Origin: a bacterium
GTDB taxonomy: Bacteria > CG2-30-53-67 > CG2-30-70-394
DNA: 19,979 bases
Direction: 5' to 3'
NCBI GenBank assembly: GCA_024278555.1
Contig: JAJRSX010000100.1
Coordinates: 1-19,979, forward strand
Shown here: positions 2,617 to 19,060 of the stretch, one piece after another
Layout: each line of letters opens with the position of its first letter
How positions within the stretch are numbered: position 1 is the stretch's first letter
The notes under the pieces: generated by a model
Told to the model about the DNA's origin: nothing
Databases searched by the model: none
Seen by the model: the letters and a program-made list of their open reading frames with translations, nothing else
Made by a program: the position numbers and the translations under genes

Positions 2617-3966
2617 GCGAGCGCGGCGGGCCCCGCGCGCGACATACTCCTGCCACTGGTCTCGCTCATAGGCGAGCCACGCCGCCACGTCGAGGCGGCC
2701 ATCGTCGCCGGCGCACGCCTCGCGGACGGCGTCGCCGGGGCCACGGCCCGCCTCCGCCACCGTCCGCAGGGGGTCGAGGTAGGTCGTCGCCTCCCCGAGG
2801 CGAGCCAACCCGGCGGCGGCGAGGTCGACGAGGTCGCGGGCGAGGGCGGCCACGGTGGTCCCGCGGACGGGGGTGGCGAGCCCTTTGGCAATGGTCTGCA
2901 GGTCGAGGTCGTCGAGCTCCCCAAAGGAGATCGACCCCATGCGCGCCCAGGCAGCGGCCCGCGCCTCCTCGTCGTAGAGGAGCCCCACCCACAGGGCGAT
3001 GAGGGGGAGGACGAGGGTGACGCCCGGGTGGTCGCAGGCGCGGATCTCGATGAAGTGTTTCAGGCGGATCTCGGTAAAGATCGAGGTGGCGTGGAGCTCC
3101 CAGTCGTCGGCGGTCGCGTCACCCGCGTCGAGGAGGGCGCGGAAGGGGCGGCCGCCGCCGTCGTGCCAGGCGCCGTCCCGCTGGAGAAAGGGCATGGGCA
3201 GGGTCAGGAGGTGGCGGGCGTAGTCGGCGAAGCCGTAGTCCGGCCGCTCGTGGGGAGCGGCGAGCAACCCGCAACGGGCCGGGTCGGTCTCGCGCCAGAT
3301 GTGGCGTCGCCAGTCGGCCACCGGCGCCGGACCGCCGGCACAAAACGGCGAGTTGGCCGCCAGCGCCCCGACCACCGGTGCCACCGCCTGGGCGGTGCGA
3401 AAGAGGTCGATCGCCTCGCGCTCGTCCCGGTAGTCGAAGGCGGCCTGGACCCCGGAGGTAAGCTTCATCATCCAGTGGCCGAGCTCGCCGGTACCGGCGA
3501 GGTGGCGCGACAGGTAGGCGTACCGCCCCTTGGGGACCCACGCCACCTCCGCCGGCGTGTCGAGCGGGTGGGCGGAGAGACAGGTCCACTGGACCCCCAG
3601 GGCCTGGGCCGCGCCGTCGAGCTCCACGAGAAAGCGGTGGTGGTCGGCCTCCAGCTCCGCCAGCGTCGCGCGCGGCGCGGTGGAGAGCTCGACCTGACCG
3701 CCTGGCTCCAGGGTGATGGTGGCGTGGCCGCGCGTCAGGGCGGTGAGGCGGCCCCCCTCGTGGGAGCGCGCCCACCCGCCGTGGGTGGCGAGGTGGTCGA
3801 GGACCGCCTCGATGCCGCGCTCACCCTCAAAGGGGAGACGGTGGCCGGTGAGGGGATCGACCCCCTGGACCTCCACCTCCATGCCGATCCGCCGCGCCGC
3901 CCGCGGTGTACACCCATCGGTAAAGGGGGCCAGCAGCCACCCGGGAAGGTCCACGTCGTGCGCCAT
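2602..3966 (-). CDS. gshA: Glutamate-cysteine ligase, plant/alphaproteobacterial type (GCS2 family)
   Basis: A 454-residue cytoplasmic enzyme that joins glutamate and cysteine through the gamma-carboxylate using ATP, the first step of glutathione synthesis. Family marks in order: GMEVE (28-32 region), where the conserved Glu residues bind metal/ATP; TLEPGGQVELS (85-95), the hallmark of this ligase type; MMKLTSGVQAAFDY (166-179); and FTEIRLKHFIEIRACD (297-312). The length matches plant-type bacterial GCLs and differs from the larger enterobacterial GshA. ATG 3966 is chosen because similarity starts there; the open frame extends upstream only as an antisense shadow of the next gene. The C-terminal tail (RRARGGGG) is low-complexity and lies in the G-rich repeat. 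No gshB is visible in the window. An EgtA-like role in ergothioneine synthesis is a less likely alternative, as no egt genes are nearby. Confidence 0.85.
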   Translation of the reverse strand: MAHDVDLPGWLLAPFTDGCTPRAARRIGMEVEVQGVDPLTGHRLPFEGERGIEAVLDHLATHGGWARSHEGGRLTALTRGHATITLEPGGQVELSTAPRATLAELEADHHRFLVELDGAAQALGVQWTCLSAHPLDTPAEVAWVPKGRYAYLSRHLAGTGELGHWMMKLTSGVQAAFDYRDEREAIDLFRTAQAVAPVVGALAANSPFCAGGPAPVADWRRHIWRETDPARCGLLAAPHERPDYGFADYARHLLTLPMPFLQRDGAWHDGGGRPFRALLDAGDATADDWELHATSIFTEIRLKHFIEIRACDHPGVTLVLPLIALWVGLLYDEEARAAAWARMGSISFGELDDLDLQTIAKGLATPVRGTTVAALARDLVDLAAAGLARLGEATTYLDPLRTVAEAGRGPGDAVREACAGDDGRLDVAAWLAYERDQWQEYVARGARRARGGGG

Positions 3967-4080
3967 GGGGCCAGGGTACTCCGGGGCGGAGAGTAGGGGA
4001 GGGCCTCTGGCCCTAGGGTTAGGGAAGGACGACCCTTCAGGTCGAATGAGGTGACGACATGAAGCCAACCACGGCACAAA

Positions 4081-4105
4081 CATTGCCGGCCGCAGGCCGG
4101 CACCA
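4081..4105. repeat. Palindromic repeat, copy 2 (inverted partner at 2505-2529)
   Basis: The core tgccggccgcaggccggca (4084-4102) has 8-bp perfect arms around GCA. The full 25 bases are the reverse complement of copy 1. It lies in the ponA-gshA gap, downstream of ponA and upstream of gshA on the same strand, together with a tandem repeat and a second hairpin. Confidence 0.6.
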
Positions 4106-4106
4106 C

Positions 4107-4133
4107 CCCTGGTCCCTGGTCCCTGGTCCCTGG
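4107..4133. repeat. 7-bp tandem repeat (ccctggt, 3.9 copies)
   Basis: Three full copies and one six-base partial copy of ccctggt run without mismatch. The tract sits between the two palindromes in the ponA-gshA gap. Short tracts of this kind can vary in copy number by replication slippage; here the variation would be outside coding sequence. Confidence 0.75.
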
Positions 4134-4148
4134 CTCGCGCAGCGAGCC
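4132..4148 (-). terminator. Terminator-like hairpin just after ponA
   Basis: ggctcgc-gca-gcgagcc is a perfect 7-bp stem with a 3-base loop, two bases beyond the ponA stop codon at 4151. No U tract follows on the minus strand. Its position suggests transcript-end formation for ponA. Confidence 0.4.
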
Positions 4149-4150
4149 CC

Positions 4151-6511
4151 CTACAGCACCGGCACCCGCCGCTCAACGCCGGTGGCGCCCTTTTCCGGCG
4201 CCGCGGCCTCCTCCACCGGGGCGACCTCGGTGGGCTCACTCCCGGGGGCGAAACATTCGATGTAGACCCCCTCCTCTTCGCCCGGGCGCGGCAGCATGCC
4301 GGTGCGTTGGTCCACCCGTCGCCAGCGGATCTCCGGTGGGGCGGTGAAGGGGATGCGGGGCTGGTCGGCAAGGGCCGCCTGCATGTACTGGGTCCAGATG
4401 GGGGCGGCGGCCCGCGCCCCGGTCTCGCGCTTGCCGAGGGTCTTGAGCTCGTCGAAGCCGACCCAGACGCCGGTGGCGATCTGCGGCGTGTAGCCGAGAA
4501 ACCAGGCGTCGTTGTAGTCGTTGGTGGTGCCGGTCTTGCCCGCCACCGGCCGCTCGGGCAGCGCCCGCCCCACCCGTCGACCGGTGCCCCGCCGTACCAC
4601 GTCGCGGAGCATGTCGGTGACCACGAAGGCGACCGGGGCGGAGACCACCCGCTTGGGCTTGGGCAACGCCTCGAAGAGGATGTCGCCGTCACCGCCGACC
4701 ACCCGCGCAATCGCCGACGGGGCGACGTGGAGCCCGCCAGTGGCGAAGGTGGCGTAGGCGGAGGTGAGCTCCAGGGGGGAGAGGACCGAGGCCCCAAGGG
4801 CCAGCGACAGGTTCGACTCCAGGGGCGAGGTAATCCCGCAGGCATGGGCAAAGCGGATGGCGCGGCGGATGCCGATGTCTTGCAGCAGCCGGATGGTGAT
4901 CACGTTGCGCGAGTGGATCAGCCCCTCGCGCAGGGGGGTGGGGCCGTAGAACCGCTGCTCGTAATTCGCCGGCCGCCACTTCCGGGCGAGCTTCACGTCG
5001 TCGTAGATGATCGGCGAGTCGAGGTAGATGGTCGCCGGGGATCGTCCGGCGGCGATCGCGGCGCCATAAATGAACGGCTTGAAGGCGGAGCCGGGCTGGC
5101 GTCGCGCCTGCACCGCGCGGTTGAACTCGGAGGTGGCGAAGTCCTTGCCGCCGACCAGCGCCACAATGGCGCCGTCGCTCGGACGGAGGGAGACGAGGGC
5201 GCCCTCCACCTCGGGGAGCTGGGAGAGCTCATAGACCTCCCCCTCCTTAGCGGGCCGCCGACGCACGAGGATCTCGTCGCCCACCGCCAGGACGTCCGCC
5301 GGCTGGCGGGCGCGCTGCCAGTGCATCTCATCCGGGTGGTCCGGGTCGACGAGCCGTTTGCCCGCCCACCGGAAGGAGGTGAAGGGGAGGCGCTGTTCAC
5401 CGCCGGCGACCCAGACGGTAACCCCCTTGGCGTCGACCCCGGTGACCACGGCGGGCAGGTGGCCCCAACCATCGGGCCGGTCCACGGCGTGGTCGCGCTT
5501 GAACAGGTCGATTGCCTCCCCCGTGTGGTGGGCGACCGGGCCGCGGTAGTGGTGCCGCCGGTCGTAGGCGATCAGGCCGTCGCGCAGGGCGTGAAAGGCC
5601 GCCCTCTGCAGCGACAGGTCGAGGGTGGTGTAGACATCGAGCCCCTGGCGGTAGACCGCCTGGTGGCCATACCACTCGGTGAGCCGCCGGCGAACCAGCT
5701 CCAGGAAGTAGTCGACCTCGCCATTGCGCCTCTCCGGGGCGGCGAGGTGAAACGGCTCCGCCTCCGCCAGCCGCCGCTCGGTGAGGGTGATGTCGTGCTC
5801 GTCGTACATCCTGGCGAGGACCACCGCCCGCCGTTGCCACGCCCGCTTCGGGTGGAGGCGCGGATTGAACCCCGACGGGGCCTTGGGCAGACCGGCGAGG
5901 ATCGCCATCTCCCCCAAGGTGAGCTCGGCCGGGCGCTTGCCAAAATAGGTCTGCGCGGCGGAGGCGATGCCGTAGGCGCCGGAGCCGAAGTAGATCTGGT
6001 TGAGGTACATCTCCAGAATCTCCTCCTTGGAGAACTGGCGCTCGATCCGCACCGCCAGCAGCGCCTCCTTGATCTTCCGATCCAGGGTCCGCTCCGGGGT
6101 GAGGAGGAGCACCTTGGCGAGCTGCTGGGTGATGGTGGAGCCCCCCTGGGCCACGTGGCCCTCGGTGACGTTGGCGACGAAGGCGCGGACGATCGCCTGC
6201 GGGTCGACCCCGTGGTGGGAGTAGAAGCGGGCGTCCTCGGTGTCGATGAAGGCCTGACGCAACAGCTTCGGGACCTGGTCGAGGTCGACCGGGATCCGCC
6301 GCTCCAGATAGAAGCTGCCGATCTCTTCACCGCCGGCGGCGAAGACACGGGTCATCCGGCTCGGGGTGTAGTGGTGCAGCGGTTCGACGTCCGGCAGGTC
6401 GCGCATGTAGTGGCGGTACCCCCACACCGCCACCCCTCCGGCGACGACGACCACCAGGAAGACGAGGGCGGCGACGACCGCTGCAACGGTGCGAAGGAGG
6501 GTGCGAAGCAT
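4151..6511 (-). CDS. mrcA: Penicillin-binding protein 1A (bifunctional peptidoglycan glycosyltransferase/transpeptidase)
   Basis: A 786-residue class A PBP that polymerises lipid II and crosslinks the strands on the periplasmic face of the inner membrane. A membrane anchor lies at about 9-31. The GT51 domain shows EDARFYSHHG (92-101, catalytic Glu92), GGSTITQQLAK (123-133), RKIKEALLAVRIER (145-158) and KEEILEMYLNQIYFG (162-176). An OB-like insertion (about 330-430) is characteristic of PBP1A. The transpeptidase domain has SAFK (475-478, nucleophile Ser475), SRN (534-536) and KTGTT (659-663). All catalytic motifs are intact. The ATG at 6511 places the anchor near the N-terminus; an upstream ATG at 6574 would add 21 Pro/Gly-rich residues. 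The C-terminal tail is acidic and Pro/Ala-rich. It is transcribed divergently from pomA. No pilM-Q genes, common PBP1A neighbours, are present. Confidence 0.93.
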   Translation of the reverse strand: MLRTLLRTVAAVVAALVFLVVVVAGGVAVWGYRHYMRDLPDVEPLHHYTPSRMTRVFAAGGEEIGSFYLERRIPVDLDQVPKLLRQAFIDTEDARFYSHHGVDPQAIVRAFVANVTEGHVAQGGSTITQQLAKVLLLTPERTLDRKIKEALLAVRIERQFSKEEILEMYLNQIYFGSGAYGIASAAQTYFGKRPAELTLGEMAILAGLPKAPSGFNPRLHPKRAWQRRAVVLARMYDEHDITLTERRLAEAEPFHLAAPERRNGEVDYFLELVRRRLTEWYGHQAVYRQGLDVYTTLDLSLQRAAFHALRDGLIAYDRRHHYRGPVAHHTGEAIDLFKRDHAVDRPDGWGHLPAVVTGVDAKGVTVWVAGGEQRLPFTSFRWAGKRLVDPDHPDEMHWQRARQPADVLAVGDEILVRRRPAKEGEVYELSQLPEVEGALVSLRPSDGAIVALVGGKDFATSEFNRAVQARRQPGSAFKPFIYGAAIAAGRSPATIYLDSPIIYDDVKLARKWRPANYEQRFYGPTPLREGLIHSRNVITIRLLQDIGIRRAIRFAHACGITSPLESNLSLALGASVLSPLELTSAYATFATGGLHVAPSAIARVVGGDGDILFEALPKPKRVVSAPVAFVVTDMLRDVVRRGTGRRVGRALPERPVAGKTGTTNDYNDAWFLGYTPQIATGVWVGFDELKTLGKRETGARAAAPIWTQYMQAALADQPRIPFTAPPEIRWRRVDQRTGMLPRPGEEEGVYIECFAPGSEPTEVAPVEEAAAPEKGATGVERRVPVL

Positions 6512-6643: not shown

Positions 6644-7408
6644 ATGGATATCGCCACCCTCATTGGTCTCGTCCTTACCTTTGCGCTGATCGTCGCCTCA
6701 ATCCTCCTCGGCGGCTCACTCATGGCCTTTGTCGACACCCCCAGCCTCCTGGTGGTCGTCGGCGGCGTGATCACTACGACGCTGATCATGCAGAAGCTGC
6801 CGGTGGTCCTGGCGACGGTGAAGGTCGTCATCCAGTCCTTCTTTGATCGCGGCACCGCCAAGACCGATCTGGTGGAAAAGATCGTCGAGCTCGCGGACAA
6901 GGCGAGGCGCGAGGGGCTCCTGGCCCTGGAGTCGATCGAGATCCCCGACGAGTTTCTCAACAAGGGGGTCAGGCTGGCGGTCGACGGTACCGAGCTCGAC
7001 GAGATCAACCAGGTGCTCGGGGCGGAGCTCGACTCCCTGAAGAGCCGCCACGGCCAGGGGCAGGAGGTCCTCGAGTTCATGAAGGGCAACGCCCCCGCTC
7101 TCGGAATGATCGGGACGCTCATCGGCCTGGTGAACATGCTCCAGAACCTCTCCGACCCGGCCGCCATCGGCCCGGCCATGGCGGTGGCGCTGCTCACCAC
7201 CTTCTATGGCGCCATCCTCGCCTTCGTCATCTTTGGACCGATCAACGACAAGCTGAAATCGCGCACCTCGGAGGAGGTCAGCCGAATGGAGATGTGCATC
7301 CTCGGGGTGAACTGCCTCAACAAGGGGGAGCACCCGCGGCTGGTGAAGGAGAAGCTCCTCGCCTTCCTGCCGCCGCCGCAACGCGCCGCCCTCGAGGAGG
7401 CCAAGTAG
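6644..7408 (+). CDS. pomA: Flagellar stator channel subunit PomA (MotA family, Na+-type)
   Basis: A 254-residue inner-membrane protein with four membrane segments (about 5-25, 33-52, 150-170, 177-199) and a cytoplasmic loop carrying the charged KARREGLLALES segment (86-97), which in this family contacts the rotor protein FliG. GNAPALGMIGTLIGLV (148-163) and ALLTTFYGAILA (182-193) line the ion path. Pro151, Thr158, Thr185 and Thr186 fall at the same positions as in Vibrio PomA, where these threonines take part in Na+ binding, so a sodium-driven stator is inferred. GGAGGA at 6629-6634 is a good ribosome binding site. The stop codon (TAG, 7406-7408) abuts the GTG of pomB, which suggests translational coupling. 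The length is normal for the family. Confidence 0.93.
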   Translation: MDIATLIGLVLTFALIVASILLGGSLMAFVDTPSLLVVVGGVITTTLIMQKLPVVLATVKVVIQSFFDRGTAKTDLVEKIVELADKARREGLLALESIEIPDEFLNKGVRLAVDGTELDEINQVLGAELDSLKSRHGQGQEVLEFMKGNAPALGMIGTLIGLVNMLQNLSDPAAIGPAMAVALLTTFYGAILAFVIFGPINDKLKSRTSEEVSRMEMCILGVNCLNKGEHPRLVKEKLLAFLPPPQRAALEEAK

Positions 7409-7771
7409 GTGGCCAAGGAGTGCGACTGCCCGCCACCGGGGGCCCCGGCGTGGATGGCGACCTTCGGGGACATGATGTCCCTGCTCCTCACCTTCTTCGT
7501 CCTCCTGCTCTCCTTCGCCAACATGGACGTGCAGAAGTTCAAGGAGGCGATGTCTTCGGTTCAATCGGCCCTGGTGGGCGGCCCCACCACCATGCGTGAG
7601 GCGGCAAACACCACCATGCTCCAGCTCTCCGACACGGCCAACAACGCGATGATCCCGCCGGTGGAGACCACCCCCGGCTACACCCCCGAGGGGGAGGCGG
7701 AGGAGCGACCCGACACCGAGACCGTGGCCCAGGGTCGCCAGGACCTGGAGACCCTCGCCTCCCTGCAGTAG
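7409..7771 (+). CDS. pomB: Flagellar stator subunit PomB, N-terminal part (interrupted by in-frame TAG)
   Basis: This 120-residue reading frame starts with GTG next to the pomA stop; GAGGAGG at 7394-7400 inside pomA is its ribosome binding site. The CDCPPPG start, then WMATFGDMMSLLLTFFVLLLSF (15-36) with the ion-binding Asp21 (equivalent to Vibrio PomB Asp24), and the following plug-like amphipathic segment MDVQKFKEAMSSVQ (39-52) are clear PomB features. The frame ends at a TAG (7769-7771) in the periplasmic linker, before the peptidoglycan-binding domain, which continues in the same frame from 7772. A normal PomB would be one chain of about 276 residues. As written, this product is an anchor-less channel helix with plug. 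Causes could be a nonsense mutation, a base-calling error (CAG to TAG) or readthrough. Other genes here end in TAG, so genome-wide recoding is unlikely. Confidence 0.88.
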   Translation: MAKECDCPPPGAPAWMATFGDMMSLLLTFFVLLLSFANMDVQKFKEAMSSVQSALVGGPTTMREAANTTMLQLSDTANNAMIPPVETTPGYTPEGEAEERPDTETVAQGRQDLETLASLQ

Positions 7772-8239
7772 ATGATTGACGCCGAGGGGATGGGCGACGC
7801 CGCCGAGGCGGAGGCAACCTCCCGTGGCGTGGTGGTCCGGGTGAAGGGCCACCTCTTCTTCCAAAGGGGCGGCGCCGATCTGCGCCACGAGTCCGCCAAG
7901 GTCCTCGACGAGATCGGCGCCATCCTCGATGTCTACCCGTACGACCTCACCGTCGAGGGCCACACGGACAACATCCCGATCCACACCGAGCGGTTCCCCT
8001 CCAACTGGGAGCTCTCCACCAGCCGCGCCATCTCGGTGATGCGCTACCTGCAAGAGACGCGTCACATCCCGGCCTCACGCATGGCGGTGGCCGGTTACGC
8101 CGACACCCACCCCCTCTTTCCCAATGACACCCCGGCACACCGGGCGGCAAACCGGCGGGTAGAGTTCGTCTTCCACCACGGACAAACGGGGCCGAAGGTG
8201 ATCGACTCGCCCCTGGCGATCAACAAGATCGGGGGGTAG
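7772..8239 (+). CDS. pomB: Flagellar stator subunit PomB, C-terminal OmpA-like domain (after in-frame TAG)
   Basis: The 155 residues continue PomB in the same frame immediately after the amber codon. The OmpA/MotB peptidoglycan-binding domain is complete: HLFFQRGGADLR (27-38), VEGHTDNIPI (61-70), SNWELSTSRAISVMRYL (77-93) and RAANRRVEFVF (124-134). There is an ATG directly after the TAG, but no ribosome binding site close before it and no signal peptide, so a separately started product would stay in the cytoplasm and could not bind murein. This makes an independent gene unlikely. The intact domain shows no other decay, which suggests a recent change, a sequencing error or functional readthrough. 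The pair pomA-pomB would need this domain to anchor the stator to the cell wall. Confidence 0.85.
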   Translation: MIDAEGMGDAAEAEATSRGVVVRVKGHLFFQRGGADLRHESAKVLDEIGAILDVYPYDLTVEGHTDNIPIHTERFPSNWELSTSRAISVMRYLQETRHIPASRMAVAGYADTHPLFPNDTPAHRAANRRVEFVFHHGQTGPKVIDSPLAINKIGG

Positions 8240-17980: not shown

Positions 17981-19060
17981 GTGAGGTCTCCTCGCCAACA
18001 GCCGCGTCGCCGCGCTCTCCGCGGCCCCGCCACGGCCGCGTTGACCGCCCTCCTCTTCGGGGCGGTCGGGTGTATCCCCGGCCCGCCCCAGGAGCTGACC
18101 TGGATGCGCCAGGACATCAAGGGGCTTCAGGAGCAGGTGCGCACCCTGCGCGCCGAGGTCCGACGGCCGGAGCTCACCGCCCAGGTGAAGTCCCTGGAGG
18201 CACGCCAGCGACGCAGCCAACAGGCCATCTCCGACCGGATGGTGGAGATCGAGGGACGCCTCGGAGAGGTGAGCCGGCAGATGGAGCGGCTGCAAGCGAC
18301 CACCGAGGAGGCGACCCACGCCACCGACGAGGCACGCCGGGAAAACGCCGCACTCACCGCCCGCCTCGCCGCCGCCGAGTCCGCCATGCGCGAGACCAGC
18401 CGCCGTGCCGGTGAGCAGCAGAGCCACCTGGCGCCGCTGGAGAGCCACCTCGCCGCGGTAGAGGCGGAGGTCGACGCCCTGGCCAAGCAGGTCACCGCCC
18501 TCCTCACCCGCAAGGCCACCCCGCCGCCCGCGAAGAAGAAAAAGAAGAAGAAGAGCATCGCGAAGAAGACGAGCAGCAAGAAGGCCAAGCCCTCCAAGAG
18601 CAGCGGCAAGAGCTCCGCGAAGGCCGGTACTGGCAAGGCGAAGACCACCGGGGTGAGCGCCGCTGTCCAGGCGGCCTACGACGCCGCCTTGAAGGAGATC
18701 CGCAGCGGCGACCGCGACAAGGGGATCGCCGCCATGGAGGCCTTCGCCAAGGCAAACCCACACACCTCCCTCACCGACAACGCCTACTTCTGGATCGGTC
18801 AGGGGTACTACACGGCAGGGAAGTACAAGCGCGCGATCTTCAACTTCGACACCCTCTTCATCGGCTTCCCCAAGTCCGACAAGGCGCCCGGCGCGCTCCT
18901 CAAGGAGGGGCTCTCCTTCCTCGCCCTCGCCCGCGACGGGAAGAGTGACGCCACCTTCGACGACGCCCGCATGGCCCTCCAGCAGGTCGTCCACGACTAC
19001 CCCGACTCCGCCGAGGCAAAGGTGGCGCAGAGGGAGCTGGCGAAGCTCAAGGGGAAGTAG
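17981..19060 (+). CDS. cpoB: CpoB (YbgF)-type Tol-Pal coordinator with long coiled coil and Lys-rich linker
   Basis: A 359-residue periplasmic protein that in E. coli links Tol function with PBP1B-driven septal synthesis. An Arg-rich start and hydrophobic stretch end in a lipobox-like GAVGC (27-31), so it may be a lipoprotein, whereas E. coli CpoB is soluble. Residues 40-177 are heptad-rich (coiled coil for trimerisation), and 178-223 form a Lys/Ser/Pro/Ala linker with seven consecutive Lys. The C-terminus (227-356) has TPR repeats of the YbgF type: [61 protein letters not shown]. It is about 100 residues longer than E. coli CpoB owing to the coil and linker. The start is uncertain: GTG 17981 (GAG just upstream) is preferred; GTG 17954 would add nine residues including two Cys. 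Confidence 0.86.

Follow-up and report, generated by a model that had tools for sequence, protein, structure and literature searches.

The window, by which we mean the whole 19,979-nucleotide stretch of DNA analysed here, carries a pair of stator genes in the order pomA-pomB, with the B subunit gene (from 7409) directly downstream of the A subunit gene and interrupted in the assembled sequence by one in-frame TAG. The features concerned are:

6644-7408, plus strand: pomA/motA-like stator A subunit gene, intact, its own TAG (7406-7408) directly abutting the GTG start of pomB
7409-7768, plus strand: 5' part of pomB, with the GTG start, a transmembrane helix bearing the conserved Asp, the plug region and most of the linker
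7769-7771, plus strand: in-frame TAG at pomB residue 121, in the part of the linker adjoining the OmpA-like domain
7772-8239, plus strand: 3' part of pomB, with the end of the linker, the OmpA-like peptidoglycan-binding domain and the natural stop TAG (8237-8239)

When the TAG is read as a residue, positions 7409-8239 form a single 276-residue frame (120 codons before the TAG and 155 after it) in which TAG 7769-7771 is the sole internal stop. The first half matches Pfam MotB_plug (PF13677, residues 5-55, E 4.1e-18) and the second half Pfam OmpA (PF00691, residues 29-128 of that half, E 1.5e-19), the OmpA domain being in frame with the plug but split off from it by the TAG in the assembled sequence. 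The initial annotation had described two conserved PomB halves in one frame, divided only by this codon between the channel helix and the murein-binding domain; the anatomy is as it stated, whereas a functional split of pomB is not supported. The neighbouring pomA matches Pfam MotA_ExbB (E 1.5e-29) and NCBIfam PomA (PRK08990, E 9.9e-77, yet below that model's cut-off). The pomB frame can be aligned over its full length with PomB/MotB chains of solved structure (8bri, 8zyv, 6ysf) and has its N-terminus in common with Vibrio PomB (CDCPPPG..WM.TF.D.MSLL..FFVLLLSF..MDV.KFK), so it is not due to chance. It resembles PomB/MotB stator B subunits in domain order, in the CDCPPPG N-terminus, in the channel-helix Asp (residue 21, within F-G-D-M-M-S-L-L of the single N-terminal transmembrane helix), in the OmpA-type C-terminal domain and in its gene order; it differs in the single linker TAG of the assembled sequence, and nothing else about it is unusual.

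The same operon is present in G001, the one further genome of this genus in the comparison, where pomB has an uninterrupted frame with 73% identity to that of the window over its whole length (87% for the A subunit). A sense codon in a close relative had been named beforehand as evidence against a functional split, and G001 has GAG (Glu), one base from TAG, at the site of the window stop, with GTG (Val) as the next codon in place of ATG; the stop is thus not conserved, and nor is the restart codon. No split of this kind was found in the more distantly related stator B genes among the matches of a 60-genome search; as far as these comparisons go, only this assembly has the stop.

A search of the whole genome with RF00005 returned 48 tRNA genes, all of which read sense codons by ARAGORN, none having the CUA anticodon of the suppressor that the initial annotation had suggested looking for. 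The profile search for PylS stayed far below its cut-off, and pyrrolysine was rejected as an explanation, the matches being generic class II synthetases. The release factor 1 gene (prfA) is intact and scores above its cut-off. TAG terminates 222 of 539 long genes (~41%) in 1.06 Mb of the genome and, besides pomB, seven genes of the window: batA, pomA, the peroxidase, der, amidase and cpoB genes, already cited correctly as an argument against general recoding, and the PBP1A gene as well. TAG is an ordinary stop in this genome, and the sense-only tRNA set, the intact release factor 1 and the roughly 40% of genes that end in TAG, together with the TAA and TGA interruptions described below, exclude amber recoding and make suppression very unlikely.

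The PylS test also brought to light an in-frame TAG in lysS, whose frame is ~86% identical and open in G001. This is the only full lysyl-tRNA synthetase gene found in the genome: class II D/K/N hits elsewhere fall in an AspS-like gene and an EpmA-like gene truncated by contig ends, and what the class I LysRS model picked up was short and generic. Redundancy through a paralogue was rejected as an explanation for the lysS stop, since neither the class II nor the class I models revealed a second copy. Since lysyl-tRNA synthetase is indispensable to a living cell, the stop in the only lysS must be either a consensus error or a codon that the cell does not read as a stop. Given that there is no suppressor tRNA and that TAA and TGA also interrupt genes, error is much the simpler reading of the lysS stop.

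We surveyed 82 stretches (1.06 Mb, about one third of the 211-contig genome, G000; completeness of the assembly is given as 100% and its contamination as low) for stops directly flanked by coding sequence on either side, ordinary gene-gene junctions being set aside by eye. Nine clean single-stop interruptions were found, namely pomB and eight other conserved frames:

lysS, L193 (G000:C56) 19009-19011 and the same place in L167 near 1825: TAG, with Glu (GAA) in G001
CbbQ/NorQ-type ATPase gene: TAG, with CAG in G001
beta-propeller gene: TAG, a weaker case
MMPL/RND transporter gene: TAA, with GAG in G001
methyltransferase gene: TGA, with matching conserved sequence around the stop
cytochrome c7-type gene: TAG, a weaker case
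phoB-like regulator gene: TAG, with the receiver Pfam domain running across the stop
ntrC-like regulator gene: TAG, with matching conserved sequence around the stop

The seven interruptions other than lysS are located at L191 2681 (+), L178 17749 (-), L223 2177 (-), L275 611 (-), L278 1449 (+), L281 5953 (+) and L291 9238 (+), where the stops are TAG, TAG, TAA, TGA, TAG, TAG and TAG, respectively. A Pfam domain or strongly conserved sequence flanks the stop on both sides in six of the eight other frames; Pfam domains span it in lysS, the MMPL protein and the phoB-like receiver, and conserved sequence matches around it in the CbbQ protein. Where relatives were available, they have sense codons at the stops of these further genes. 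ABC-transporter domains served as a yardstick, and none of their 29 matches in G000 had an internal stop. An automatic G000-G001 homology comparison, which was swamped by shadow frames of GC-rich DNA and was read by eye, supported only the pomB, lysS and MMPL cases in G000 and none in G001; it gave no frameshift interruptions in G000.

The nine surveyed stops comprise seven TAG, one TAA and one TGA. Random single-base changes would be expected to give 68, 15 and 17%, respectively, the high share of TAG arising because GAG, CAG, AAG, TAC and TCG are frequent in this codon usage; seven out of nine is near that expectation (p 0.41), and no amber-specific biology is therefore needed. No common readthrough context was seen in the bases around the surveyed stops. 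The same survey on 0.65 Mb of G001 gave at most one doubtful interruption, a possible interrupted AAA-type ATPase frame (L249 17214 (-), VVVF/GPRQAGKTTL). The excess in G000 (9 in 1.06 Mb versus at most 1 in 0.65 Mb) has p ~0.06, or 0.014 when the doubtful case is left out, and a higher interruption rate in G000 than in G001 is only suggestive.

We consider the TAG in pomB most likely to be a single-base consensus error in the draft assembly, with a probability of roughly two in three. The organism would then have one ordinary, continuous pomB that forms an operon with pomA and codes for the flagellar stator's B subunit, and the pomB and lysS stops would share a cause. As the lysS stop is likely an error, error is by parity also the likeliest origin of the pomB stop; however, pomB, unlike lysS, could really be broken, given that a stator is dispensable and that a second intact stator cluster is present. 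A G>T or C>A change would fit several of the stops (pomB and lysS, for which the relative has Glu), and loss of MutY is known to raise G:C to T:A mutation. A G:C to T:A mutator was nevertheless rejected as the single cause, since the norQ stop fits C>T and MutY is intact, and no one cause is proven for the whole set. Base error comes first and a recent nonsense mutation second among explanations of the pomB stop: the organism itself most probably lacks the split, and should it have one, this is an ordinary nonsense mutation. Of the four options listed in the initial annotation, base error is thus the best supported and a fresh loss of the stator is possible, while amber suppression and reinitiation are contradicted by the evidence.

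A precedent is provided by Mycobacterium smegmatis, in which 28 of 73 re-sequenced interrupted genes proved to be sequencing errors, at ~4 per Mb (PMC1852416). As in that set of interrupted coding sequences, a conserved gene that is intact in relatives is split here by one base change, and there are several interruptions per genome, at several per Mb; in contrast, the genes were resequenced there and were read here from the assembled sequence, and the changes here are base substitutions that create stops, not frameshifts. The main value of the case is one of caution, in that one clean in-frame stop may give the impression of a split gene or recoding in a draft genome, and the fact that stops in the same assembly also hit a gene the cell cannot lose points to base errors.

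A real and recent nonsense mutation, by which the strain lost this stator or which exists as a within-population variant, is possible and, in our judgement, rather unlikely. Stator genes are dispensable, and both halves of pomB are otherwise well preserved, as they would be after a very young mutation; the dispensable genes among those interrupted (regulators, transporter, cytochrome) are also plausible as real mutations. PomB would be truncated and would lack its peptidoglycan anchor, and rotation would rest on a second stator cluster. The stator is positioned by its peptidoglycan-binding domain, and ion flow is controlled by the plug and linker (PMC9093738), so a PomB that stops within the linker would not be expected to function as an anchored stator. 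Such a loss would be tolerable, because flagellin genes are present and the second motAB/pomAB locus that the initial annotation had proposed to look for exists as an intact motA-motB-motB-fliL cluster on G000:C145. Against a real mutation, the same kind of stop occurs in the only lysS, where it cannot be a real loss, clean single stops are frequent for a genome that shows no decay, and MutY is intact.

Amber suppression or programmed readthrough would allow a share of PomB to be made at full length, with Gln or Glu, for instance, inserted at the TAG, and could account for the conservation of both halves in one frame, for the in-frame TAG in the essential lysS and for the preponderance of TAG among the surveyed stops. 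It would be important if true; however, the tRNA set and the stop usage speak against it, as do the intact prfA, the interruptions by TAA and TGA, the lack of a shared context and a TAG excess that codon usage predicts, and we regard it as very improbable. A still fainter prospect is a two-chain PomB, in which translation stops at the TAG and restarts at the directly adjoining ATG to give a membrane plug chain and a peptidoglycan-binding chain. The TAG-ATG arrangement would permit stop-start reinitiation, but the nearest GGAG ends ~20 bases upstream of the ATG, a greater distance than is normal for a ribosome-binding site, and no such site was found closer to that ATG; inspection by eye likewise found no export signal on the second half, both as first noted from the sequence. 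The GAG-GTG of G001 and the unsplit stator B genes of the 60-genome search are further evidence against two chains. General nonsense suppression, through ribosomal ambiguity or a modified tRNA that reads the scattered stops efficiently enough to leave PomB and LysS full length, is hardly credible.

The second stator cluster (L116, G000:C145:4000-9750) comprises motA (2959-3762), a B-like gene (3759-4478), motB (4465-5196) and fliL (from 5221), with the two B-type genes in tandem between motA and fliL. The first B-type protein keeps the OmpA-like domain and is without the channel Asp (NFVVLYTALSVILLSFFVLMNS), and the second has the channel Asp (FSDLITLLLTFFVLN). Paired B-type matches close together were also observed in two other genomes (G017 and G041).
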